A stretch of DNA of 34,219 nucleotides from Candidatus Aminicenantota bacterium (GTDB lineage: Bacteria > Acidobacteriota > Aminicenantia > Aminicenantales > Saccharicenantaceae): NCBI GenBank assembly GCA_017883305.1, contig JADGNU010000006.1, positions 1 through 34,219 on the forward strand, read 5' to 3'. This document shows positions 4,948 to 18,240 of the stretch, in pieces. The number at the start of each line of letters is the position of its first letter. Within the stretch, counting starts at the first letter, position 1. A program made the translations under genes and the position numbers. The notes beneath the pieces were generated by a model. It made no database searches. It saw nothing but the letters and a program-made list of their open reading frames with translations, and was not told where the DNA came from.

Positions 4948-5991
4948 ATGGCTAAAACCAAACGCGCAACGGTCGCCTGGATGAGCACATCCGCCGGCGA
5001 GATGGCCGGACCGCATGGCCCGGCGGAGACCCCGACGGAGGAAACCCTCCGCGACTCCGAGCTTCTCGACGCCTACTCGCGGGCTGTCGTCGGCGTCGTC
5101 GAGCGGACCGGGCCGGCGGTCGTCAGCATCTCGATCGGCGCCGCAGACAGGGCCGAAGAATTCGAACCCATGGGGGCAGGGTCGGGCTTCGTCATCGCCC
5201 CCGACGGCTATATCCTGACGAACAGCCATGTCGTCCTGGACGCGCCGCGCATCGACGTCACGTTCATGAACGGGGACCGGCGCAAGGCCAGCCTCATCGG
5301 GCTCGACGAATCGACCGATCTGGCCGTCGTCTGCGTCAATACGTCAGGACTGCCGTACGCCGATCTCGGAAACTCGGCCGGGCTTCGCGTCGGACAGCTC
5401 GTCATCGCCGCCGGGAACCCCTACGGCTTCCAATCGACGGTTTCGACGGGCGTCGTCTCGGCCCTCGGGCGCTCGCTCCGGACCCGGCAGGGCAGGCTGA
5501 TCGAGAACGTCATCCAGCACACCGCCCCGCTCAACCCCGGCAACTCGGGCGGCCCGTTGCTCGATTCGCGCGGCCGGGTCATCGGCATCAACACGGCCAT
5601 CATCGCCATGGCCCAAGGCATCGGCTTTGCCATCCCGGCCGACACCGCCCGCTCGGTCGTCTCCCAGCTCATCACCAAGGGCAAGGTCACGCGGAGCTAT
5701 CTCGGGATCGTCGGGATGCGGCGCCCCCTGGACCGCCGTTTTATTCGCTTTTATCGGCTGGGAAAGGACCAAGCCGTCGAGATCGTTTCGCTGGCTGGGG
5801 ACGGCCCGGCGGCCGAGGCCGGCCTGCGCCGCGGGGACATCATCGTGGTTTTGGGCGGCACGGCGGTCGCCAGCGTCGACGAGATCTTCCATGTCCTCGC
5901 GGATTGGCCCGTCGCCAAGCCCATGGCGGTGGGCTTCCTCCGCGGCAAGGACCTCAAGGAGACGACGGTCACGCCGCGCGAAGCCTCCTAG
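4948..5991 (+). CDS. HtrA/DegP-like S1C serine protease with PDZ domain
   Basis: TNSHVVLDAPRIDVTF (His), STDLAVVCVN (Asp), NPGNSGGPLLDSRGRVIGINTAI (Ser), followed by a PDZ-like region (GDGPAAEAGLRRGDIIVVLGGTAV). Start at 4948 or 4981. Confidence 0.88.
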   Translation: MAKTKRATVAWMSTSAGEMAGPHGPAETPTEETLRDSELLDAYSRAVVGVVERTGPAVVSISIGAADRAEEFEPMGAGSGFVIAPDGYILTNSHVVLDAPRIDVTFMNGDRRKASLIGLDESTDLAVVCVNTSGLPYADLGNSAGLRVGQLVIAAGNPYGFQSTVSTGVVSALGRSLRTRQGRLIENVIQHTAPLNPGNSGGPLLDSRGRVIGINTAIIAMAQGIGFAIPADTARSVVSQLITKGKVTRSYLGIVGMRRPLDRRFIRFYRLGKDQAVEIVSLAGDGPAAEAGLRRGDIIVVLGGTAVASVDEIFHVLADWPVAKPMAVGFLRGKDLKETTVTPREAS

Positions 5992-6056
5992 ACAGTTGCG
6001 GCGCGGTCCGCCGCTGTGAGACAATGGCCGCGAACGACCCGCAAGGAGGAGGCCTC

Positions 6057-6992
6057 ATGAGCCGGACGATCGGACGACGCGACTTCATCAAAACGAGCGC
6101 CGGAGCCGGGCTGACCCTGGCGATGGGCAAGGCCCTGGCGGCCGCTTCGACAGGCGCGGCCAAAGCCAAGGCGCCGACGGTCGGCGTCGGCATCGGCGAG
6201 GACTACGGGCAGGCCGCGGTCAGGGCCGTAGCTCTTGCGGGCGGCATCAAGCGGTTCGTGCCGAAAGGCGCCAAGGTCGCTCTTCTCCCGAACGTCCAGA
6301 GCCGTCATCCCGGCGCGTATACCAATCCCGAGGTCCTGCGGGCCGTCATTCGGCTCTGCAAGAAGGCCGGGGCCTCGGAGATCAACTGCCTGAGCTGGCA
6401 GACGGCCAAGCAATGGGACGATACGGGGCTCAAGGCGATCCTCGATGCCGAGGGCGCCGGGCTCAAGCTCTTCGAGAAGGACGAGTCTCTCTTCAAGCCC
6501 GTCCCTGTGCCCAACGGCGTCGTCCTCAAGGAGGCGCGCGTCCTGGCCGCTCTCTTCGACCATGATGTTCTCATCAACATGCCGATCACCAAGGACCACG
6601 CGGGCAACAAGTTCACGGGAGCGATGAAGAACCTCATGGGCCTGAACTCGCCGGAGAGCAACCGGACCTTCCACCGGCCGAACTGGAAGACGGACCCGGA
6701 CGACGTCGCCCACCTCGATCAGTCGATCGTCGATCTGAACAAGGCGGTCAGACCGGCGCTCAACGTCGTCGACGCCACGGAATTCATCGTCAGCAACGGC
6801 CCCTTCGGGCCGGGCCAACTCTTCAGGCCCCAACGGGTGGTGGCGGGCACGGACCGCGTCGCCATCGACGCCCACTGCGCCTCGCTCTGGGGCCTCAAAC
6901 CCAGTGACATCGTCCAGATCAAGCGGGGCGGCGAACAGGGGCTGGGCGAGATCAATCCGGAGAAGATCGTCCTCAAGGAAGAAAATATCTAG
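6057..6992 (+). CDS. DUF362 domain-containing protein with Tat signal
   Basis: AAGGAGGAGG before ATG 6057; N-terminus MSRTIGRRDFIKTSAGAGLTLAMG is a twin-arginine signal; LLPNVQSRHPGAYTNPEVLRAVIRLCKKAGA and LINMPITKDHAGNKFTGAMKNLMGL are DUF362-like. Confidence 0.85.
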   Translation: MSRTIGRRDFIKTSAGAGLTLAMGKALAAASTGAAKAKAPTVGVGIGEDYGQAAVRAVALAGGIKRFVPKGAKVALLPNVQSRHPGAYTNPEVLRAVIRLCKKAGASEINCLSWQTAKQWDDTGLKAILDAEGAGLKLFEKDESLFKPVPVPNGVVLKEARVLAALFDHDVLINMPITKDHAGNKFTGAMKNLMGLNSPESNRTFHRPNWKTDPDDVAHLDQSIVDLNKAVRPALNVVDATEFIVSNGPFGPGQLFRPQRVVAGTDRVAIDAHCASLWGLKPSDIVQIKRGGEQGLGEINPEKIVLKEENI

Positions 6993-7025: not shown

Positions 7026-7937
7026 ATGGCAGATGTCCGGCGCTGGCCTGCCGCATGGGCCCTGGCGGGCTTTCTCCTGGCGGGCGCCTGGGCAGCCCCG
7101 ATTTGTCTCAGCCAGGGCACCCTTGGCGCCCTGCTCCCTGAGACCGGCGCGGCGCCGGGATGGTCGAGGGACGGCACATCTCAAGAATATGTCGGAGAGG
7201 ACCTTTACACCTATATCGACGGCGGGGCCGAGATCTATCAGGAATACGGCTTCCGCCGGGTCGTCCTGCAGGATTACAGGAATGCCGCGGGTAAGTCCGT
7301 TTCGCTGGAGATCTTCGAGATGGAGACGCCTGCGGCCGCCTACGGCATCTACACCTTCAAGAGGTCCGGAAAAGGGAAGAGCGTGCCTCTCGGCTCCGGC
7401 GCCGATCTCGAGGACTACTACCTAAATTTCTGGAAGGGCCGGTTCGTGGTCACGCTGACCGGGTTCGATGAGACCGCTGCGACGATCGACGGGATTCTGG
7501 CCGTCGGCGGCGCGGTCGACGCGAAGATCGCCGACAAATCGGATCTTCCGGCGCTTGTCGAGGCCTTGCCCGAGGCAGGACTCAAGCCGGGCAGCGTCAA
7601 GTACTTTAAGGGGCTCCTTGGACTCAACAACGTCTATTCCTTCTATACGGCGCGAGGCTTCAATTTCCTGGAGGCCGTCAAGGGGGACTATGAGGGCGGA
7701 GCGATGCTGATCGTCATGGATTATGGCACGGCCGCGGCCCGCGACAAGGCCTGGACCGAACTCAGGGCCTATCTCGAAAAATCGGATCGGTTCACACGGC
7801 CCGTGACAGGAGAGAAGGTCCCGCTTTTCCGGGACACCAAGGACCTCTATCTGGCCTTCGCGCAGGCGGGACCCCGCCTCCGCGTCGGCATCAGCCCCGA
7901 CCCATCTGCCTCTACCGCCATCGTCGGGCAGCGCTGA
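7026..7937 (+). CDS. DUF6599-like secreted protein
   Basis: Signal peptide; LYTYIDGGAEIYQEYGFRRVVLQDYRN...LEIFEMETPAAAYGIYTFKRSG...DYYLNFWKGRFVVTLTG matches my recollection of the DUF6599 family. Confidence 0.7.
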   Translation: MADVRRWPAAWALAGFLLAGAWAAPICLSQGTLGALLPETGAAPGWSRDGTSQEYVGEDLYTYIDGGAEIYQEYGFRRVVLQDYRNAAGKSVSLEIFEMETPAAAYGIYTFKRSGKGKSVPLGSGADLEDYYLNFWKGRFVVTLTGFDETAATIDGILAVGGAVDAKIADKSDLPALVEALPEAGLKPGSVKYFKGLLGLNNVYSFYTARGFNFLEAVKGDYEGGAMLIVMDYGTAAARDKAWTELRAYLEKSDRFTRPVTGEKVPLFRDTKDLYLAFAQAGPRLRVGISPDPSASTAIVGQR

Positions 7938-8028: not shown

Positions 8029-8682
8029 CTACTGCAAGATCTGCTTGACGATGTCGACGAGTCCCAGGGCGTATTCGATCTCGGTCAGCGGGATCTTCTT
8101 GGCCGCGGCCAGCTTGGTGAAGCGGCCGTCCTTGTTGCTGTCCTTGGTCACGACAAGGTAGTCCGCGAAAGGGGCCACGGCGTCGATCATCCGCTCATTG
8201 TCGCTCCCGGCCGGGCCGCGCTTCGATTCGCCGCCGATGTGGACGGCCATGACGAAGATCTTCTTCTGCTTGCAGAATTCGATGACCTTCTTCAGCCGGG
8301 CCTCCTCGCTGTCGAGGGTCAGGCCCGAGGCGCCCATGCCCTTGAGGCTCGCGCCGATGGCGAAGATGACGGCTTTGTAGGGTGTGCCGGCGGGGACCTT
8401 GGCCGGGTCGTTCGTGGTCTCGACGTGGAAGCCCGGGCCGGATTCGCGGCCGCCGAGCCCCACGCCGTCGGCCACCATTTCCGGCGTCGGCACATCGCAG
8501 TAGTCGTAGGGAATGCCGGCGTCCTCGAGGACGATATTGAGGGTCGTGACGTCGGTGCTCTGCCCGGCCGAAGTGGTCAGGACGGGCAAGCCGACCTTGG
8601 GCAGGGCCTGCTGGCCGGCGACGAGAAAGGCCAGGCCGGCCAGGGCGACCGCGGCGAGTCCCAGGAAGATTCTCTTGTTCAT
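8029..8682 (-). CDS. DUF6305-like secreted protein
   Basis: Start moved to ATG 8682 (MNKRIFLGLAAVALAGLAFLVAGQQ signal peptide), which avoids overlapping the upstream C69 gene; LPVLTTSAGQSTDVTTLNIVLEDAGIPYDYC...AVIFAIGASLKGMGASGLTLDSEEARLKKVIEFCKQKKIFVMAVHIGG. Confidence 0.65.
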   Translation of the reverse strand: MNKRIFLGLAAVALAGLAFLVAGQQALPKVGLPVLTTSAGQSTDVTTLNIVLEDAGIPYDYCDVPTPEMVADGVGLGGRESGPGFHVETTNDPAKVPAGTPYKAVIFAIGASLKGMGASGLTLDSEEARLKKVIEFCKQKKIFVMAVHIGGESKRGPAGSDNERMIDAVAPFADYLVVTKDSNKDGRFTKLAAAKKIPLTEIEYALGLVDIVKQILQ

Positions 8683-8693
8683 CGCATGCTCCT

Positions 8694-10415
8694 TCACTTC
8701 TTGTCCGGCTCCATGAGGATGTCGAAGGCCCGGGCGGCCTTCTTCCACCAGTCGGGGGTGGCCGGTTGGCCGCGGGAGAAGCCGCGCTTCTCGGCGTTGT
8801 AGAGGTAGAGCCGGTTGTACTTGACGAGCAGGTCGTCACCGAGCTTCCACCAGGCGTTGGTGACGGTGGTGGCGTTGTTGATCGCGAACCCGTTCAGGAA
8901 CTCAGCCGCCTTGGCCGGCTTGGTCTTGTAAAGGGCCAGCGCCTGCTGGTCGATCTCGGGGATGCGCATGACGAGCTCACCCTCATATTTCGCCTGGGCC
9001 GCCTGGACGTCCTTGATGGCCTCGGAATAGGCGACCTGGACATGGAAATCCGTGTAGTCGAAGGCCCAGCGGACCGAATCACGGCTGAAGGTCCAGTGGT
9101 CGCCGACCATGAACGACTTGGGGATCTCGGTCAGGCCGGCGTAAAGCGGCATATAGCAGGAGGTGTCCTGCGAGCCGAAAGCGATCCAGACGATGCCGCC
9201 GATGGGGTCCGGAAGCCCCGCCCGGCTCTGCGTCACCGTGGAGTACTCGGCCAGACCGTGATCGATGACCCGGGTCTGCCGGTAATAGTTAGGGTTCTTG
9301 AACGGGCCGCCGCGGATGCCCTGGACGGGATCGAACGGCGTGCCATAGCTGCGGTCCCGGGTCATGGCCATGACGTCTTGGACCGAGATCTTCTTGTCGG
9401 GCTTGACGGAAAAGGGCAGGTCCATGTTGGGCATGTCGGCTTTGAACTTCTTCGACGGGGCGACCAGGTCAAAGAAGCGCCATAGGCGCTGGATGCGCCC
9501 GTTCGTGCTCAGGGCGCTGCCCTCGACGGGGGAGTAGGCCCGCTTGAAGTTGAAGGGCTTGCCGCTTTTGGGATCGTAATAGCCCATCTCGACGGCGAGC
9601 GATACGACGTTCGGCGAGGCCATGAAGAAGTCCTTGTTCCCGAGGTCGATCTCGCCGATCCGCGACTCGTTCGGGCAGACGCTGACCTCGTCGTCGGGGA
9701 CGCGCTGGGCGGCCCAGACAGCTCCGGGCTTGCCGCTCTCGGGCGTCCACAGCGGGCCGGCGGGCATGATCTCGAAGATCCAGGCCTCTTTCGCGTCGGC
9801 GACGGCCAGCATTTCGCCGTCGTCATGGAATCCGTAGCCGTACTTCTCGGCGAGCGAGCCCATGATCTGGATCGCCTCGCGGGCCGTGGCCGCCCGCTCG
9901 ATGCCGAGCAGGGTCAGCATGCTCAGATCGAGCTTGGCCGCCGGGGTCGGGTTCTGCATCTTGCGCTGGCAGCCGATCGTCGACTCGCCCATCGACACCT
10001 GCTTTTCGTTCATGTAGCCGAACATGCCGTGGTGGTAGGCGTAGGTGTGGGCGACCTCGGGGATCTCGAGGCCGGCGAAATCCTTCTTATAGACGTCCCA
10101 CTTCAGGCCTTCCGACGGCGGCCAGGTCTTGTACTGGGAGATGTGGTAGATCTTGCGGGTCGAGCCGGGCTTGTGGTCGGCCGCCGGGACGTGCCGCCAG
10201 GTCCAATCGCACGTGCCGCAGTCGCAGGTGTGCGTGGTCATGACCGAGCGGTCGGTCGAGGCGTCCTTGCCGACGAGGATCGAGGTGCAGCCTTCGCCGG
10301 CGATGACGGCATCGGCCCCTGCGGACGGACCACCGGCCGCCGCGGGGACGTGGCCGGCCAGGAAGACGGCCAGAACGAGCGTCAGGCCGAGCGGGATGAG
10401 GCGTTTGAAATTCAT
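8694..10415 (-). CDS. C69 family (PepD-like) dipeptidase, secreted, copy 2
   Basis: Ntn-hydrolase N-terminus EGCTSILVGKDASTDRSVMTTHTCDCGTCDWTWRHVPAADHKPG; HTYAYHHGMFGYMNEKQVSMGESTIG; AAGGAGCT before ATG 10415. Confidence 0.88.
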   Translation of the reverse strand: MNFKRLIPLGLTLVLAVFLAGHVPAAAGGPSAGADAVIAGEGCTSILVGKDASTDRSVMTTHTCDCGTCDWTWRHVPAADHKPGSTRKIYHISQYKTWPPSEGLKWDVYKKDFAGLEIPEVAHTYAYHHGMFGYMNEKQVSMGESTIGCQRKMQNPTPAAKLDLSMLTLLGIERAATAREAIQIMGSLAEKYGYGFHDDGEMLAVADAKEAWIFEIMPAGPLWTPESGKPGAVWAAQRVPDDEVSVCPNESRIGEIDLGNKDFFMASPNVVSLAVEMGYYDPKSGKPFNFKRAYSPVEGSALSTNGRIQRLWRFFDLVAPSKKFKADMPNMDLPFSVKPDKKISVQDVMAMTRDRSYGTPFDPVQGIRGGPFKNPNYYRQTRVIDHGLAEYSTVTQSRAGLPDPIGGIVWIAFGSQDTSCYMPLYAGLTEIPKSFMVGDHWTFSRDSVRWAFDYTDFHVQVAYSEAIKDVQAAQAKYEGELVMRIPEIDQQALALYKTKPAKAAEFLNGFAINNATTVTNAWWKLGDDLLVKYNRLYLYNAEKRGFSRGQPATPDWWKKAARAFDILMEPDKK

Positions 10416-10446
10416 AGACAGCTCCTTTTTCATGCGGGCCCGTTCG

Positions 10447-12168
10447 TCACTTCTCGGGTTCGCTCAGGACATCGAAGGCCCGGACGGCCTTGTTCCACCA
10501 CTCGGGGTTGGCCGTCGGGATGCGGCCGCCGCGGCGCTTCTCGGCGTCGTAGAGGCCGAGGTGGTTGTATTTCACCCACAGGTCGTCGCCGAGCTTCCAC
10601 CAGGCGTCGACGACGTTCTGGGCATTGTTGAGGCTGAACCCGGTGACGTACTTGACCGCCTCCCGGGGATTCCGCTTGTAGAGGTCGCCGGCCAGGGCGT
10701 CGATCTCGGCGATGCGGTCGAGGGCGCCGCCCTCCCATTTCTGCCGGGCCGCCTGGACGTCCTCGATCGCGGCGTTGTAAGCGACCTGCGTGTGGAAGTC
10801 GACGTAGTCGAAAGCCCAGCGGGCCGACCCGCGATCAAGGACGAAATGGTCGCCGACGGAGAACGACTTGGGGATATCGGTCGCCCCGGCGTAGAAGGGG
10901 ACATAGCAGGAGGTATCCTGCGGGCCCAGGGCGACCCAGACGATGCCGCCGATCGGGTCGGGGAGCCAGGAGCGGCACTGGGTCAGGGTCGTGTATTCGA
11001 CGTTGGAGACGCTGATGAGCCGGGTCCCCTTGTAGTAGTTGGGGTTCTTGAAAGGGCCGCCGCGCAGGCCGCGGACCGGGTCGAAGACCGTGCCTTCCGA
11101 CTTGTCCCGGGTCAAGGCCATGACGTCCTTGGCCGAGAGCTTGGCGTCAGGCTGGACCGAGAAGGGGAAGTCCATGTTGGGGGTCTCGGGCTTGAACTTT
11201 TTCGAGGGCGCGACGAGGTCGAAGAAGCGCCAGGTGCGCGAGCGGCGGCCGCCCGTGCTCATCGCGCTCCCGTCGGTCGGGGAATAGGCCTTCTTCCAGC
11301 TGAACGGCTTGCCCCCCTTGGGGTCGTAGAGACCCGCTTCGACGGCGAAGGACTCGGCGTGGGCCGAAGCCATGAAGACGTCCGGGTTGCCGGGATCGAT
11401 CTCGCCGATGACGGATTCGTTCGTGCAGACTGCGACATGGTCGTCGGGGACGCGCTGAGCCGCCCAGACCGCGCCCGGCTTGCCGCTCTTCGGCGTCCAG
11501 AGCGGGCCGACGGGCATGATCTCGAAGGCCCAGATCTCCTTGGGGTCGGAGACGGCCAGCATCTCGCCGCCGTCGTGATAGCCGTAGCCGTACTCCTCCG
11601 CCAGTGAACCCATGAGCTTGATGGCCTCGCGGGCGGTCCGGCAGCGCTCCATGGCTAGAAGCGTCAGCATGGTGATGTTCGTCGCCGGGGTCGGCGTGGG
11701 GTTGCTGAGCTTGCGCACATTGCCGATAGTCGATTCGGCGATGGCCAGCTGCTGATCGTTCATGTAGCCGAAGACGGCGTGATGGTACCCGTAGGTGTGG
11801 GGCGCCTCGGGGATCTCGACCGTGGTCGGGTCCTTGAGGACCATGGCCCATTTGCCTCCCTCGGAGGGCGGCCAGGTGCGGACCTGGTCGATGTTGTAGA
11901 GTCGCCGTTTTTCGGCCGGCTTGTGGTCGGCCGCGGGGACGTGGCGCCAGGTGAAGTCGCAGACGCCGCAGTCGGCCGCGTGCGTGCTCATGACCGAGCC
12001 GTCGGTCGACGCCTCCCGTCCGACCATGATGACGGTGCACGCTTCGGAGGCCAGGTCGAGGTCGGATGACGGGCCGGAAACGCCGCGGGGAGCCAGACTC
12101 ACTCCGCCGGTCAGGACCAGGACCGCGGCGAAGATCAGGATCGCGGGGATCGCTTTCTCCTTGAACAT
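10447..12168 (-). CDS. C69 family (PepD-like) dipeptidase, secreted, copy 1
   Basis: SEACTVIMVGREASTDGSVMSTHAADCGVCDFTWRHVPAADHKP; highly similar along its length to the protein at 8694-10415. Confidence 0.88.
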   Translation of the reverse strand: MFKEKAIPAILIFAAVLVLTGGVSLAPRGVSGPSSDLDLASEACTVIMVGREASTDGSVMSTHAADCGVCDFTWRHVPAADHKPAEKRRLYNIDQVRTWPPSEGGKWAMVLKDPTTVEIPEAPHTYGYHHAVFGYMNDQQLAIAESTIGNVRKLSNPTPTPATNITMLTLLAMERCRTAREAIKLMGSLAEEYGYGYHDGGEMLAVSDPKEIWAFEIMPVGPLWTPKSGKPGAVWAAQRVPDDHVAVCTNESVIGEIDPGNPDVFMASAHAESFAVEAGLYDPKGGKPFSWKKAYSPTDGSAMSTGGRRSRTWRFFDLVAPSKKFKPETPNMDFPFSVQPDAKLSAKDVMALTRDKSEGTVFDPVRGLRGGPFKNPNYYKGTRLISVSNVEYTTLTQCRSWLPDPIGGIVWVALGPQDTSCYVPFYAGATDIPKSFSVGDHFVLDRGSARWAFDYVDFHTQVAYNAAIEDVQAARQKWEGGALDRIAEIDALAGDLYKRNPREAVKYVTGFSLNNAQNVVDAWWKLGDDLWVKYNHLGLYDAEKRRGGRIPTANPEWWNKAVRAFDVLSEPEK

Positions 12169-12207
12169 GTCGGATACCTCCAGGGGCGCGCGCCGGGCCG
12201 GCCCCGG

Positions 12208-13371
12208 TCAATTCATGACGACACCGCCTGCCGGGGTCTTGGCCGGGTCGGCAAGGAAATGCCCGACGCCGTTCTTGACCAGGTCGGCATAGCGGGGGAC
12301 GCCGCTGACGGCGATGGCGCGGTCGGCGGCCTTTTTTGAAAACTGGCGGAAGATCTCCAAAGTCACGGACAGGTTCTGGCCGACCCTCTTCTCGAGCGGC
12401 CAGCCGCTTTCGTCGTAAGGGACAAATAGCTTCTTTTTCTTGGACAGGCTGAGGAGGAAGGGGTCCTTGCCGTCGAGGAGGAGCTTGGTCGTCTTCGGCC
12501 CGGTCGGCTGGTCGAGGAAGGGGATGGGCGCCTCGAGCAGGAAGGGCAGCGCCGGGCCGTGGTCTCCGATCTCCCGGTGGGAGAGGCCGCGGAAGCCCAC
12601 CGGCGACCGCTCGACGTGGCTCTCGAAGCCCTCTTTGGCCTTGACCGTCAAGGAGGCCAGGGTCGCGATCTTGACCGAGCTTTCCGGGGCGACGATGCAG
12701 TTGGTCACGGGGAACATGGTCTCGGCGCCGTGGACATCGATGGCCAGGTCGATCTTCTCGCGTCGCATGAGCTCCATGGCCCCGAACGTCACTTTCTCCA
12801 TCAGAGGCCCGTTGGCCCGGCCCGGCCAGGTCCGGTTGGTGTTGCGGATGTCGATGTAGGAAAGAAGCTGGCGTTCGGGGTAGTGGATGTAGACATCCGG
12901 GTCGGGCCATTGGTCGAGGGGCGAGGCGTCGCGGTTGCCGAAACGGAAGCGCCGTTGGCCCCAGTCCGTGGCGACGTCGAAATAGAGCGGATAGCCGTCA
13001 CCCGGCCGCGTGTTCCGGCTGCCGCTGTTGTTGAAGACGGGGATAACGTAAAGTGTCCCTTTCTCGACGATGCCGTTCTCGACAACGATGATGGCCGAGA
13101 GCATGCCTTCCGGCTCGTTCGAATGGGTATCGCCCATGAGCAGGGCCTTGCCGCCCGGCTCGCGGCCCTGAAGGACATATATAAAGGTATCGCCGGGCGT
13201 GCCCTTGAGACCGGGCGAGTACTCGCTCAGCCGACGGACCGCCGTGACGCCCGGGCCCTTGACGATCGGGACGTCGTGGTGCCGATGACGGAACAGGGGC
13301 AGGCCGCCCCAAAGGACGAACGCGACGAAGGCCGCGGCCAGGACCGTCTTGAGAAATGCGTCTTTTCTCAT
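12208..13371 (-). CDS. Succinylglutamate desuccinylase/aspartoacylase-like (M14 superfamily) metallohydrolase, membrane-anchored or exported
   Basis: MRKDAFLKTVLAAAFVAFVLWGGLPLF signal/anchor; LLMGDTHSNEPEGMLSA (HxxE zinc ligands) and LAIDVHGAET (third His). Confidence 0.75.
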   Translation of the reverse strand: MRKDAFLKTVLAAAFVAFVLWGGLPLFRHRHHDVPIVKGPGVTAVRRLSEYSPGLKGTPGDTFIYVLQGREPGGKALLMGDTHSNEPEGMLSAIIVVENGIVEKGTLYVIPVFNNSGSRNTRPGDGYPLYFDVATDWGQRRFRFGNRDASPLDQWPDPDVYIHYPERQLLSYIDIRNTNRTWPGRANGPLMEKVTFGAMELMRREKIDLAIDVHGAETMFPVTNCIVAPESSVKIATLASLTVKAKEGFESHVERSPVGFRGLSHREIGDHGPALPFLLEAPIPFLDQPTGPKTTKLLLDGKDPFLLSLSKKKKLFVPYDESGWPLEKRVGQNLSVTLEIFRQFSKKAADRAIAVSGVPRYADLVKNGVGHFLADPAKTPAGGVVMN

Positions 13372-13381
13372 GCGGCCCGGC

Positions 13382-13531
13382 TCACTTCCACCTGAGCAGT
13401 CTGAGGAGCAACGGGACCATGACCAGAAGATACAGGGCAAGGTCGCCCCGGCGGCTTTTTTCCCGGACGAAGTTCCAGGCGAGAAGCCCGAGGAGGAAGG
13501 CGGTGATAACGTAATACGCGATCATGATCAT
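13382..13531 (-). CDS. 49-aa predicted two-helix membrane microprotein
   Basis: MIMIAYYVITAFLLGLLAWNFVREKSRRGDLALYLLVMVPLLLRLLRWK*, translated by hand; GGAGG upstream; below the ORF-track length cut-off; fits a 19-nt/10-nt gap between co-directional operon neighbours. Confidence 0.65.
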   Translation of the reverse strand: MIMIAYYVITAFLLGLLAWNFVREKSRRGDLALYLLVMVPLLLRLLRWK

Positions 13532-13550
13532 CGCTGCGCCTCCATGACCC

Positions 13551-14858
13551 CTACATGCTCCATCTGACCAGGAAGGCCAGCTTCGAGCTGAAGATGATCA
13601 TGCCCATGGCCACCGCGGTGACGGCCAGCCAGGGCAGCCAGGTCGCCTTGAGGAAATCTTTGTAAGAACCTTCATAGCCGGAAACCATGGTGCTCAACCG
13701 GCCGATCAGGGCCGTGGGGGGCAGGCCGTCGCCGAGGGGCCAGAGCAGGCTCAGCCCGGCGATGACGACCGTCGCGTGGAACCCGATCGAGTCCAGGAAC
13801 CAGATGAGCGGGATGCCGATGATGGCCGCCCCGCCGTAGGTCAGGAGGCCCTCGGAGAAGGGGATGATGATCGGCAGGAGGAAGAACAACAGCACGAGGG
13901 GGGTCGAGATGACGGCGAACGACAGCAGGCCGCGGACGCCGGTCGCGGTCATGATCTGCTGGAGCATGCCGACGGCCACCATGGTCGCGAGGAGAGGCAA
14001 AAGCCTTTTCGCCGTGTCCCGGGCGAGGGTGAGGAAGGCGATCCGCTTCGGGCTGAGGAGGAGGGCGGCCGCCCCAGCAACGGTGAACTCGAGAGACAGG
14101 CCGAAGATGGGCGTCGAGAAAGGCCAGATCCTGTAGGCGACGACCATGCCGAAAAAGACGGCGAACGGGATGGTCACCCGCCACCAGGTCATTCCCGGGG
14201 TCGTCAGGGGCAGGTCCGCGTTTCCGGACATCGTCCCGGTGTCCTTTTTCCAGCCCAGCACGAGGATCGTGAACGTCCCCAGGAAAAGGACGGGGATGCC
14301 CAGGGTGAACTCGAATCCGACGTAAGGGATGGCCGTCCCGGCGCAGAGGATCATGGCCCAGATGTTGACCGGCGGGGCCGCGGCGCTCAAGCCGGCGACG
14401 ATGAACAGGATGGCGGCCACCCTCTTCTTGGGCACGCCCAGCCGGCCGAGGGCCAGAGCCACGGGGGCCCCGACGACGAGGAGGGAGACACTGCCGGCCC
14501 CGGTCAGCGCGCCCGGAACAAGGACGATGATCATCAGGACGAGCAGGGCCGGAAGGCGCATTTTGCCGAACGCCCGGAGCGTCGCCCGAACGACATAATC
14601 GACCCCGCCGGATTCGTTGACGATGGTCATGAACAGCGTCGCGGTGAAGAAGACCAGGATGACGTCGAGGTAGGTCGTCGAGCCCTCGACGAGGTGACGC
14701 CCGAGCTCGCCGATCGCCGGAGTCTTGAGGAAGGCCCCGGCCAGGCCGCCGCCAACGGCTGCAGCGAAGATGCCCAGCTCGACCGAAAGCTTGGCCGCTT
14801 TGGCCGCGGCGTACGCCGCGATCATGACCGCCAATATCACGAGGATCTGTGTCGTCAT
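13551..14858 (-). CDS. Ion-transporter-superfamily permease (TRAP DctM/DcuC/citrate-transporter-like), about 12 TM
   Basis: Strongly hydrophobic throughout; VLVPGALTGAGSVSLLVVGAPVALALGRLGVPKKRVAAILFIVAGLSAAAPPVNIWAMILCAG resembles the re-entrant hairpin region of this superfamily. Confidence 0.7.
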   Translation of the reverse strand: MTTQILVILAVMIAAYAAAKAAKLSVELGIFAAAVGGGLAGAFLKTPAIGELGRHLVEGSTTYLDVILVFFTATLFMTIVNESGGVDYVVRATLRAFGKMRLPALLVLMIIVLVPGALTGAGSVSLLVVGAPVALALGRLGVPKKRVAAILFIVAGLSAAAPPVNIWAMILCAGTAIPYVGFEFTLGIPVLFLGTFTILVLGWKKDTGTMSGNADLPLTTPGMTWWRVTIPFAVFFGMVVAYRIWPFSTPIFGLSLEFTVAGAAALLLSPKRIAFLTLARDTAKRLLPLLATMVAVGMLQQIMTATGVRGLLSFAVISTPLVLLFFLLPIIIPFSEGLLTYGGAAIIGIPLIWFLDSIGFHATVVIAGLSLLWPLGDGLPPTALIGRLSTMVSGYEGSYKDFLKATWLPWLAVTAVAMGMIIFSSKLAFLVRWSM

Positions 14859-14870
14859 GCTCAGCCCTGC

Positions 14871-14900
14871 ATCTTACAGGAATTGCGGCGGCGCGGTCAA
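14871..14900 (-). promoter_or_regulatory. Sigma70-like promoter of the permease-peptidase operon
   Basis: Reverse strand TTGACC (14895-14900), N18, TAAGAT (14871-14876), ending 12 nt before ATG 14858. Confidence 0.5.
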
Positions 14901-15032: not shown

Positions 15033-15048
15033 TATGCACGCACCTCAA

Positions 15049-15064
15049 CCTCCCGTCCGGGAGG
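15049..15064 (+). promoter_or_regulatory. Perfect hairpin or dyad 2 in leader
   Basis: CCTCCCG-TC-CGGGAGG, 7-bp perfect complementary arms. Confidence 0.5.
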
Positions 15065-15091
15065 GCATTTCCCATCCGTCCGGTCTTCCGC

Positions 15092-15097
15092 TACAAT
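15092..15097 (+). promoter_or_regulatory. Candidate second -10 box (P2), TACAAT
   Basis: GCTACAAT about 30 nt upstream of ATG 15127; weak -35. Confidence 0.4.
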
Positions 15098-15126
15098 TGT
15101 TGCATGTCTTCCAAAGGAGGCCCTCC

Positions 15127-18100
15127 ATGCGGACTCCCGCATTCACGAAATTCTTCGCCGCTCTGAGCCTGGCAGGTCTGCTGGCCGGGGTCGGCGTGCC
15201 CGAGCTTCAGGCCCAGTACTACGGCCGGAACAAGGTCCAGTACCAGAAGTTCGACTTCCAGATCATGAAGACCCGCCACTTCGACATTTACTTCTATCTC
15301 CAGGACCAGGAGACCGTCAAAATGGCCGGCCTCATGGCGGAACGCTGGTACTCGCGCCTGTCCCGGATGTTCAATCATGAGCTCAAGGGACGTCAGCCGC
15401 TCGTCCTTTACGGCAGCAGCCCCGAATTCCAGCAGACGACGGTCATCCCCGAGATCCTGGGGGAGGGGACCGGCGGCGTCACTGAATCGTTCAAGCGCCG
15501 CATCGTCTTGCCCTACGGCGCCTCGCTGGCAGAGACCGACCACGTCATCGGGCACGAGCTCGTCCACGCCTTCCAGTACGACATCATGGCCCAAGGCCAT
15601 TCCGACCAGTCCCGGGGCAACGATATGGGTCTGCGCATCCCTCTCTGGTTCATCGAGGGCATGGCCGAGTACCTGTCCATCGGGCCGGTCGACCCCAACA
15701 CCTCGATGTGGATGCGCGATGCCGTCCGCCGCAAAGAGGTGCCGGAGATCAAGAAGCTCGGCGACTCCTATAAATATTTCCCTTATCGTTGGGGCCAGGC
15801 CGTCTGGGCCTACATCTCCGGGCGCTGGGGCGATGAAGTCATCGGCAAGATGATGAAGGTCGTCGGCCGCACCGGGGACTACGAGGTCATCCTGGAGAGC
15901 GTCCTGGGCATCAAGATGAAGCAGCTCTCGGCCGACTGGCGCAAAGCCATGCAGGACGCCTACGGTCCGCTGATCGAAAAGACGCAGCTGGCCGACTCGT
16001 TCGCAAAACCTCTGTTCAAGGGAAGCCGATCCAATCCCTACAACATCGCGCCGTCCATCAGCCCGGACGGGAAATCGCTCGTCTTCCTGTCGAGCCGCGA
16101 CCTGTTCTCGATCGACCTCTTCCTGGCCGACGCCGATACGGGCAAGATCCGCCGCAAGATCATCTCGACGGCCGTCGACCCCCACTTCGAAAGCATCCAG
16201 TTCATCAAGTCCGCCGGTGCATGGGACGCCACCGGCGAGAAGTTCGTCTTCGGCGGCGTGGCCAAGGGCCGGCCGGTCCTGACCATCATCGACATGAAGA
16301 AGGACAAGATCGAGCGCGAGATCCCCTTCGGCGAGCTGTCCGAGATCCTCAGCCCGGGGTTTTCCCCCGACGGCCGCTACATCACCTTCTCCGGCCTCGC
16401 GGGCGGCGTTTCGGACCTCTTCATCTACGATCTCAAGGACAAGATCCTCAAACAGATGACCCGCGACTCGTACGCCGACCTGCAGCCGGTCTGGTCGCCG
16501 GATGGGAAGACCATCGCCTTCGTCACGGAGAGGTTCTCGACCAACCTCGAGTGGGTCGACATCGGGCACTACGAATTGGCCCTCCTCGACGTCGAGTCCG
16601 GCCGGATCCAGAAGCTGCTGGCCTTCCCGGACGGCAAGAACATCAACCCCCAGTGGACCGCCGATTCCTCGGCCCTCTATTTTCTATCGGACCAGAACGG
16701 CAAGACCGACCTCTATCGGATCGACATCACCTCGGCCAAGATCTTCGAGGTCACGAACCTCTATGCCGGCATCGCCGGGATCACCGAGCTCAGCCCCTCC
16801 ATTTCCATCGCCCTGGCCACGGGGCGGCTCGTCTTCTCGGGCTACCATGACGGCTACTACACGATCTACTCGATCGACGACCAGGCGTTTCTGCAGGGGC
16901 AGTCGTTCCTGGCCCAGTTCGAGCGCAACCCGGCCCTCCTGCCCCCCCGGAAGGAACCGGAGGGGGCCTTGTTGGGGCTTCTCAAGAACCCCCTGTTCGG
17001 GCTGCCCAAAGACACCAACTTCGCCGTCGTCGCATATAAGCCCAAGCTCGGTCTCGATTATGTTTCGCCTCCGAACATCGCCCTCGGCGTCGACCGTTAC
17101 GGCACCTACGGAGCGGGCGGCGTCGCGGCCTATTGGAGCGACATGCTGGGCTATCACACGGTGGTCACGACCGCCTTTACCGGGTCCCGGATCATCGATA
17201 CCTCGGGCGTCCTGGCCTACCTCAACAACCGGGGCCGGTTCAACTGGGGCGCGGCGGCCCAGCGGATCGTCTATCCCTATCCGTACTATCTCTTCTATCA
17301 GACGCAGGACGGCCTTTACCACGAGATCGAAGACGTCTTCCGGCTCATCAATTATGACATCTCCCTCTTCGGGTCCTACCCGTTCAGCCAGGTCAGCCGG
17401 TTCCAGCTCAGCGCCGGCTACCGGATCCAGGATTTTAACCACACTGTTTACGAACGCATCTACGACCCCAACGGGTTCCTCCTCGATTACCAGAAATATC
17501 ACCCGGCGGATACGCCTCCCGCCCTGTCCTATGCTTACGCGACGGCCGGCTATTTTTACGACACTGGCATTTTCGGCGCGACGAGCCCGATCCTGGGCCA
17601 GAACGCCGGCATCTCGCTTTCACCGGCCTTGGGCAAGGTCACGTTCACGACCTTCCTGGCGGATTTCCGGAAATACATCATGCCCGTCAAGCCCTTCACC
17701 CTGGCTTTCCGGGCCCTGCACATGGGTCGCTACGGCAAGGACTCCGAGGACACCCGGTTCTACCCGCTCTACATCGCCTACTGGGACCTGGTGCGCGGCT
17801 ACGAATCGATCACCAACGCGGAGTTGAACGAATACCAGGCTAATCCGTCTGAAGCGTTCGATTTCAACCGGCTTTTCGGCAGCAAGATGATCGTGGCCAA
17901 CGCCGAACTGCGCTTCCCGCTGCTCGGGCTGCTGGGGATCGGCAAGGGCTTTTACGGCGCCTGGCCCCTGGAGTTCTGCGCCTTCTATGACTGGGGCGTC
18001 GCTTACGCTTCGAACCCGAGTCAATGGTGGGGCGGGTTCGCCGCGGATGGGACTCCCGACCCCAACCTGGTCAAACCGTGGTTCGTCAGCGGCGGGCTGC

Positions 18101-18240
18101 GGAAGCCCGTGAGGAGTTTCGGCATCGGCCTCCGAACGAACCTCTTCGGCTATATCGTCATGGGGCTCAACTACGTCTATCCCATCGACAGGCCGGTGCG
18201 CGGCTGGCATCTCCAGCTGAGCATCAGCCCGGGCTTCTAG
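15127..18240 (+). CDS. Secreted peptidase MA-like gluzincin + TolB/PD40-like beta-propeller + Omp85 (BamA/TamA-like) outer-membrane barrel
   Basis: AAAGGAGG before ATG 15127 and signal peptide MRTPAFTKFFAALSLAGLLAGVGVPELQA; IGHELVHAFQYD (HExxH) with downstream WFIEGMAEYLS; repeated ISPDGKSLVFLSS/FSPDGRYITFSG/WSPDGKTIAFVTE blades; C-terminal DLVRGYES, ANAELRFPLLG, FYDWGVAYA and terminal Phe (SPGF*). Confidence 0.82.
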   Translation: MRTPAFTKFFAALSLAGLLAGVGVPELQAQYYGRNKVQYQKFDFQIMKTRHFDIYFYLQDQETVKMAGLMAERWYSRLSRMFNHELKGRQPLVLYGSSPEFQQTTVIPEILGEGTGGVTESFKRRIVLPYGASLAETDHVIGHELVHAFQYDIMAQGHSDQSRGNDMGLRIPLWFIEGMAEYLSIGPVDPNTSMWMRDAVRRKEVPEIKKLGDSYKYFPYRWGQAVWAYISGRWGDEVIGKMMKVVGRTGDYEVILESVLGIKMKQLSADWRKAMQDAYGPLIEKTQLADSFAKPLFKGSRSNPYNIAPSISPDGKSLVFLSSRDLFSIDLFLADADTGKIRRKIISTAVDPHFESIQFIKSAGAWDATGEKFVFGGVAKGRPVLTIIDMKKDKIEREIPFGELSEILSPGFSPDGRYITFSGLAGGVSDLFIYDLKDKILKQMTRDSYADLQPVWSPDGKTIAFVTERFSTNLEWVDIGHYELALLDVESGRIQKLLAFPDGKNINPQWTADSSALYFLSDQNGKTDLYRIDITSAKIFEVTNLYAGIAGITELSPSISIALATGRLVFSGYHDGYYTIYSIDDQAFLQGQSFLAQFERNPALLPPRKEPEGALLGLLKNPLFGLPKDTNFAVVAYKPKLGLDYVSPPNIALGVDRYGTYGAGGVAAYWSDMLGYHTVVTTAFTGSRIIDTSGVLAYLNNRGRFNWGAAAQRIVYPYPYYLFYQTQDGLYHEIEDVFRLINYDISLFGSYPFSQVSRFQLSAGYRIQDFNHTVYERIYDPNGFLLDYQKYHPADTPPALSYAYATAGYFYDTGIFGATSPILGQNAGISLSPALGKVTFTTFLADFRKYIMPVKPFTLAFRALHMGRYGKDSEDTRFYPLYIAYWDLVRGYESITNAELNEYQANPSEAFDFNRLFGSKMIVANAELRFPLLGLLGIGKGFYGAWPLEFCAFYDWGVAYASNPSQWWGGFAADGTPDPNLVKPWFVSGGLRKPVRSFGIGLRTNLFGYIVMGLNYVYPIDRPVRGWHLQLSISPGF

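Follow-up and report, generated by a model that had tools for sequence, protein, structure and literature searches.

The window described here, a 34,219-nucleotide (nt) stretch of a Candidatus Aminicenantes genome, carries on its minus strand (8029-14858) an operon of six co-directional genes, which encode a permease, a 49-amino-acid (aa) membrane microprotein, an AspA/AstE-like hydrolase, two C69 dipeptidases and a DUF6305 protein. The DUF6305 protein, the permease, the microprotein and the AspA-like hydrolase form a conserved core, and our data strongly supported a link between this four-gene module and poly-gamma-glutamate (PGA). We propose, with a probability of about 0.55, that such four-gene modules make up a family serving the metabolism of PGA or of gamma-glutamyl peptides through a cycle of hydrolysis and import, and that the window operon represents its dipeptidase type.

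The core was present in 47 Aminicenantes loci, and its four genes were constant in the complete loci of the window type, while the number of C69 genes varied from 0 to 3 per locus. The C69 dipeptidases are therefore accessory, and their membership in the core was ruled out. An initial annotation of this DNA had proposed a six-gene system; the operon and its conservation stood, but the inclusion of the two C69 genes in the core did not. Co-occurrence beyond the source genome, whose absence that annotation had named beforehand as a refutation, was found in the Aminicenantes loci and in Cetobacterium (Fusobacteriota), and a system specific to the window genome was thereby ruled out.

Paralogous modules were sought in 396 Acidobacteriota genomes, to which the genome counts given below also refer. 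The permeases formed three clades in a tree, with those of groups 2 and 3 being 45-49% and ~30% identical to the permease of the window (group 1). The four core genes were kept in almost all of the paralogous modules, and core genes were missing mostly at contig ends. The window genome itself contains a second cluster with paralogues of all four core genes (locus L050, contig C56), in which the DUF6305 gene lies 2.8 kb upstream, past an M28 peptidase gene on the opposite strand. An M28-type peptidase gene was found between the DUF6305 and permease genes in many group 2 clusters (L050 5697-7796; L086 10333-12411). The DUF6305 gene was up to a few kb away in clusters of the L081-L085 type, and the stretches examined of L085 and L090 did not contain it. 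In L098, two AspA-like genes (638-1468 and 5628-6725) flank one set of gamma-glutamyltransferase (GGT), DUF6305, permease and microprotein genes.

The 49-aa open reading frame (ORF) is a genuine coding gene. A homologue of 47-51 aa (46 aa where a contig end cuts the gene) followed the permease gene in 44 of the 45 window-type loci whose contig extends past the permease; in the sole exception, L029, no microprotein could be located in the last 300 bases of the contig. Homologues also occurred in the paralogous modules, including those of Fusobacteriota, and in L102, L103, L104, L107 and L098 the gap between the permease and AspA-like genes encodes a microprotein that the window-type profile had missed. 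Comparison with the closest relatives gave a pN/pS of 0.24, versus 1.7-1.8 in the other two frames. Because of these in-frame, length-conserved homologues after the permease and the low pN/pS, a chance ORF was ruled out, and the membrane microprotein of the initial annotation proved to be real. It contains two hydrophobic stretches and a conserved C-terminal LR...K, with Y6 and R44 invariant in all paralogue groups, and carries no family annotation.

The association with PGA emerged from the gene neighborhoods of groups 2 and 3, in which PgsB, PgsC, PgsW and GGT were identified by passing NCBIfam equivalog or subfamily cut-offs. Group 2 modules adjoin pgsB-pgsC-pgsW (L086, L088-L092, L132 and L133), in a convergent orientation in most Aminicenantes, and in L083 a single co-directional run of C69-pgsB-pgsC-pgsW-DUF6305-permease-microprotein-AspA was observed. 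Group 3 modules adjoin ggt in most loci, both within and outside the class of the window genome. In Cetobacterium somerae (L115), the two associations are combined in the run ggt-DUF6305-permease-47aa-AspA-like-pgsB-pgsC-pgsW. This locus lies on plasmid p1, on which two ggt genes, chromate-transporter genes and a two-component system were found beside the PGA operon (L115 5393-6997 and 10220-11923). The single Cetobacterium record was the sole match in plasmid searches, and no relatives of its permease were found in phages.

Co-occurrence across the genomes was close to one to one. The permease was counted in 36 genomes, DUF6305 above its cut-off in 36, PgsW in 36 and CapC/PgsC in 37; as union sets, pgs genes were present in 36 of the 37 genomes with the module, and the module in 36 of the 38 genomes with pgs genes. 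Outside the class of the window genome, where 9 of 349 genomes have pgs genes, these were present in 7 of the 8 module genomes (hypergeometric probability ~2e-12, uncorrected for relatedness), and the seven genomes span five families. In G060 and G093 the window-type module occurs alone, with pgsBCW elsewhere, and the window genome has pgsW on contig C56 and pgsC and pgsB on contig C255. In one Acidobacteriota genome that lacks the module, two CapC-like matches lie in one 992-aa frame (G267:C15:273094-273987), which may reflect another use of the CapC fold.

The position of the module inside a pgs run in L083 and Cetobacterium could also be explained if the module served PGA synthesis in two-membrane bacteria as a maturation or export arm. 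The permease and microprotein would then aid movement or counter-transport, the AspA-like enzyme and GGT would trim or anchor the polymer, and DUF6305 would act as a periplasmic chaperone. The GGT-type CapD processes PGA in Bacillus, whose PGA synthase also includes the small PgsE/CapE protein. However, the fold of the permease is that of small-anion secondary carriers, not of a polymer exporter, and many loci have the module apart from pgs, with extra hydrolases instead. We consider such a maturation or export arm unlikely. The modules resemble the pgsBCW and pgsBCAE (capBCAE) systems in their linkage to and co-occurrence with pgsB, pgsC and pgsW, in the involvement of GGT homologues in PGA processing, and in the tiny protein of the Bacillus systems; in contrast, the module contains no synthase, and the Bacillus system has no carrier, AspA/AstE-like hydrolase or DUF6305.

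In the proposed cycle, the polymer would be delivered into the periplasm, or across it, by the PgsB/PgsC/PgsW synthase, whose genes lie elsewhere in the genome, and the anchored AspA/AstE-like enzyme would cut gamma-glutamyl amide bonds outside the cytoplasm. The small products would be finished by the C69 dipeptidases in the window operon, or by GGT in the sister module, and the permease would import the freed glutamate or a short oligomer. The microprotein would serve as a small subunit of the permease, and DUF6305 would act as a partner in the periplasm. We infer the substrate, the direction of transport and the parts played by DUF6305 and the microprotein. The near 1:1 co-occurrence with pgsB, pgsC and pgsW and the linkage to ggt make gamma-glutamyl chemistry likely. 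Gamma-glutamyl-glutamate, an N-acylated glutamate, resembles the succinyl-glutamate of AstE.

The AspA-like protein of the window alone had no Pfam match under 0.01 and was placed through its homologues: AstE_AspA_cat was found in 32/32 of these and weakly in the window protein, whose 13.4 bits fall short of the cut-off of 25 that relatives pass at 28.7-30.5 bits. The residues H83, E86, H214, N179-R180 and E280 were invariant across all three paralogue groups and fit the zinc ligands HxxE...H, the NR motif and the catalytic Glu, roles that we presume from the known AspA/AstE/M14 enzymes. Its nearest relatives of solved structure in the PDB were DoeB and succinylglutamate desuccinylase, and its profile weakly matched 4wcm/4wck and Pfam M99, the family of Csd4-type carboxypeptidases; Csd4 cuts peptidoglycan peptides at their gamma-D-glutamyl bond. 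With the AstE, AspA, DoeB and Csd4 enzymes the module enzyme shares a zinc motif, an NR motif and a catalytic Glu; unlike them, it has an N-terminal hydrophobic anchor or export segment, and it scored 18.5 bits against the DoeB equivalog, far under the cut-off of 402.7.

The two C69 proteins are 63% identical to each other and, judged by sequence, are members of the Pfam family, although dipeptidase activity is not assured, as they reached 185 and 175.5 bits against the NCBIfam equivalog C69_fam_dipept (cut-off 250 bits). The column of Cys44 of dipeptidase A, the N-terminal nucleophile (Ntn), contained Cys in 53 of 54 sequences and a gap in the remaining one.

With its pair of C69 dipeptidases and its AspA/AstE-type deacylase, the window copy would also suit a general system, not related to PGA, for scavenging N-acyl amino acids or dipeptides, as the initial annotation had proposed. 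The permease also matched the fold of the AbgT-family YdaH (4r0c), and AbgT-like carriers take up N-acyl glutamate in other bacteria. This explanation is nevertheless improbable, as it leaves aside the near 1:1 co-occurrence with pgsB, pgsC and pgsW, the linkage with pgs and ggt, and the C69 genes that lie beside pgsBCW itself, within ~2.2 kb, in five loci from two families (L083, L117, L120, L123 and L124). From the earlier proposal, hydrolases with export signals and a permease of the carrier type were supported, and hydrolysis coupled to import was retained; the generic substrates were not, gamma-glutamyl compounds being likelier given the association with pgs and ggt. In the AbgT + AbgAB system for uptake and cleavage of p-aminobenzoyl-glutamate, too, a carrier from this superfamily is paired with an enzyme that releases glutamate from an N-acyl derivative. 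AbgAB, however, is cytoplasmic and belongs to another amidohydrolase family, whereas the module enzymes have export signals, and neither DUF6305 nor a microprotein is found in the Abg system.

The window permease alone likewise had no Pfam match under 0.01 and was placed through homologues. Its AlphaFold2 model (pLDDT 74.5, low in places) best matched, in Foldseek, SiaM of the TRAP family (7qha_B, TM score 0.65), followed by ArsB (10tp_A, 0.55) and VcINDY (6okz_B, 0.50), and the predicted fold class is that of the ion-transporter superfamily, to which dicarboxylate carriers belong. The designation as a DctM-type large permease rests on this fold for the window protein, and the Pfam DctM cut-off was passed only by group 3 paralogues. 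The DUF6305 model (pLDDT 90.7) consists of one Rossmann-like domain of ~190 aa in the mature protein, with the conserved blocks TS-x-GQ, G-x-S-x-KG-x-G and D-x-x-F. Foldseek gave no confident fold match in the PDB, binding proteins included. An SGNH esterase was rejected with a best TM score of just 0.31-0.36, and comparison with PDB sequences led us to reject a relationship to any entry.

A DctM-fold permease, a small membrane protein and a periplasmic protein together recall the TRAP transporters (DctP-DctQ-DctM). The module differs from them in having a 47-51-aa protein with two hydrophobic stretches in place of the DctQ with four transmembrane segments, in that DUF6305 is not a DctP or TAXI binding protein, and in that the set includes a hydrolase. 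We tentatively suggest, at less than even odds, that the module is an undescribed TRAP-like three-part carrier, with the microprotein standing for DctQ and DUF6305 for the binding protein, which together with the anchored AspA-like hydrolase would make up a dedicated PGA recycling system of two-membrane bacteria. Alternatively, DUF6305 and the microprotein could be regulatory or assembly factors of the hydrolase or the synthase and not transporter subunits, which would fit either metabolic explanation. The lack of a confident match of DUF6305 to a binding protein and the variable position of its gene, first or last in the set, are in keeping with such factors, but the microprotein gene directly follows that of the permease in nearly every locus showing the junction, in all three groups, and we regard this alternative as rather unlikely.

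Several points weigh against a role of the window operon in PGA hydrolysis and import. The window-type module itself is not physically linked to pgs genes, the co-occurrence probabilities disregard the relatedness of the genomes, and the carrier fold settles neither the substrate nor the direction of transport. None of the known PGA-hydrolase families in Pfam was matched by the AspA-like enzyme. Further, its active-site motif in group 1 has G215 (HG), where groups 2 and 3 have Glu (HE), so the substrate of the group 1 enzyme may differ from that of groups 2 and 3, as a variant of the same theme.

A search of the open-access literature found no description of the module and no paper joining PGA with a desuccinylase; it returned no mention of DUF6305 among 5.4 million papers, nothing useful on PgsW, and just general PGA papers for Aminicenantes and polyglutamate. 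Taken one by one, pgs genes, GGT, C69, AspA-type enzymes and DctM-type carriers are known; their stable combination with DUF6305 and the microprotein appears to be undescribed. The module provides a first functional context for DUF6305 and for an unannotated tiny membrane protein, and suggests how the polymer is handled outside the cytoplasm by polyglutamate makers other than Bacilli, among them Fusobacteriota and Acidobacteriota. Polyglutamate production has been reported in F. nucleatum (Candela 2009, as cited in PMC3815933), which makes Fusobacteriota a natural test bed, and this idea is open to experiment in culturable members such as Cetobacterium.

The features of the operon are listed in Table 1. 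As the initial annotation had stated, the six genes share the minus strand with short gaps, which measured 10-39 nt (19, 10, 39, 13 and 11 nt in the order from permease to DUF6305). The start of the AspA-like gene was corrected to 13371, past the microprotein stop, from a listed start (13440) too far upstream. The six genes are probably transcribed as a single mRNA. The "one good promoter" of the same annotation was present as a promoter-like site but matched the consensus weakly (9/12); it ends 13 nt upstream of the permease start, in a region with 3 sigma-70-like sites against 0.7 expected. No RNA families or tRNAs were found in the window.

Table 1. Features of the operon and its upstream region in the window.
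Feature	Position	Strand	Description
Permease	13551-14858	-	435 aa; ion-transporter-superfamily fold predicted (DctM/INDY/ArsB-like); core
Microprotein	13382-13531	-	49 aa; two-helix membrane protein; conserved C-terminal LR...K; core
AspA/AstE-like zinc amidohydrolase	12208-13371	-	387 aa; N-terminal membrane anchor; core
C69 (Ntn) dipeptidase A	10447-12168	-	573 aa; predicted secreted; Pfam PF03577 E 7.5e-58; accessory
C69 (Ntn) dipeptidase B	8694-10433	-	579 aa; predicted secreted; Pfam PF03577 E 1.2e-58; accessory
DUF6305 protein	8029-8682	-	217 aa; N-terminal signal-like segment and Rossmann-like domain; Pfam PF19823 E 1.7e-38; core
Possible sigma-70-like operon promoter (weak)	14871-14900	-	TTGACC-18-TAAGAT; 9/12 consensus match

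Downstream of the operon, the other strand encodes a DUF6599 protein (7026-7937, +) and a DUF362 protein with a twin-arginine translocation (TAT) signal (5904-6992, +). The divergent neighbour (15034-18240, +) encodes a 1068-aa protein with PD40 propeller repeats, a weakly Omp85-like C-terminus and weak metallopeptidase matches around HELVH, an unusual arrangement of peptidase, propeller and barrel; relatives of this protein were found near the operon in 9 Aminicenantes loci.

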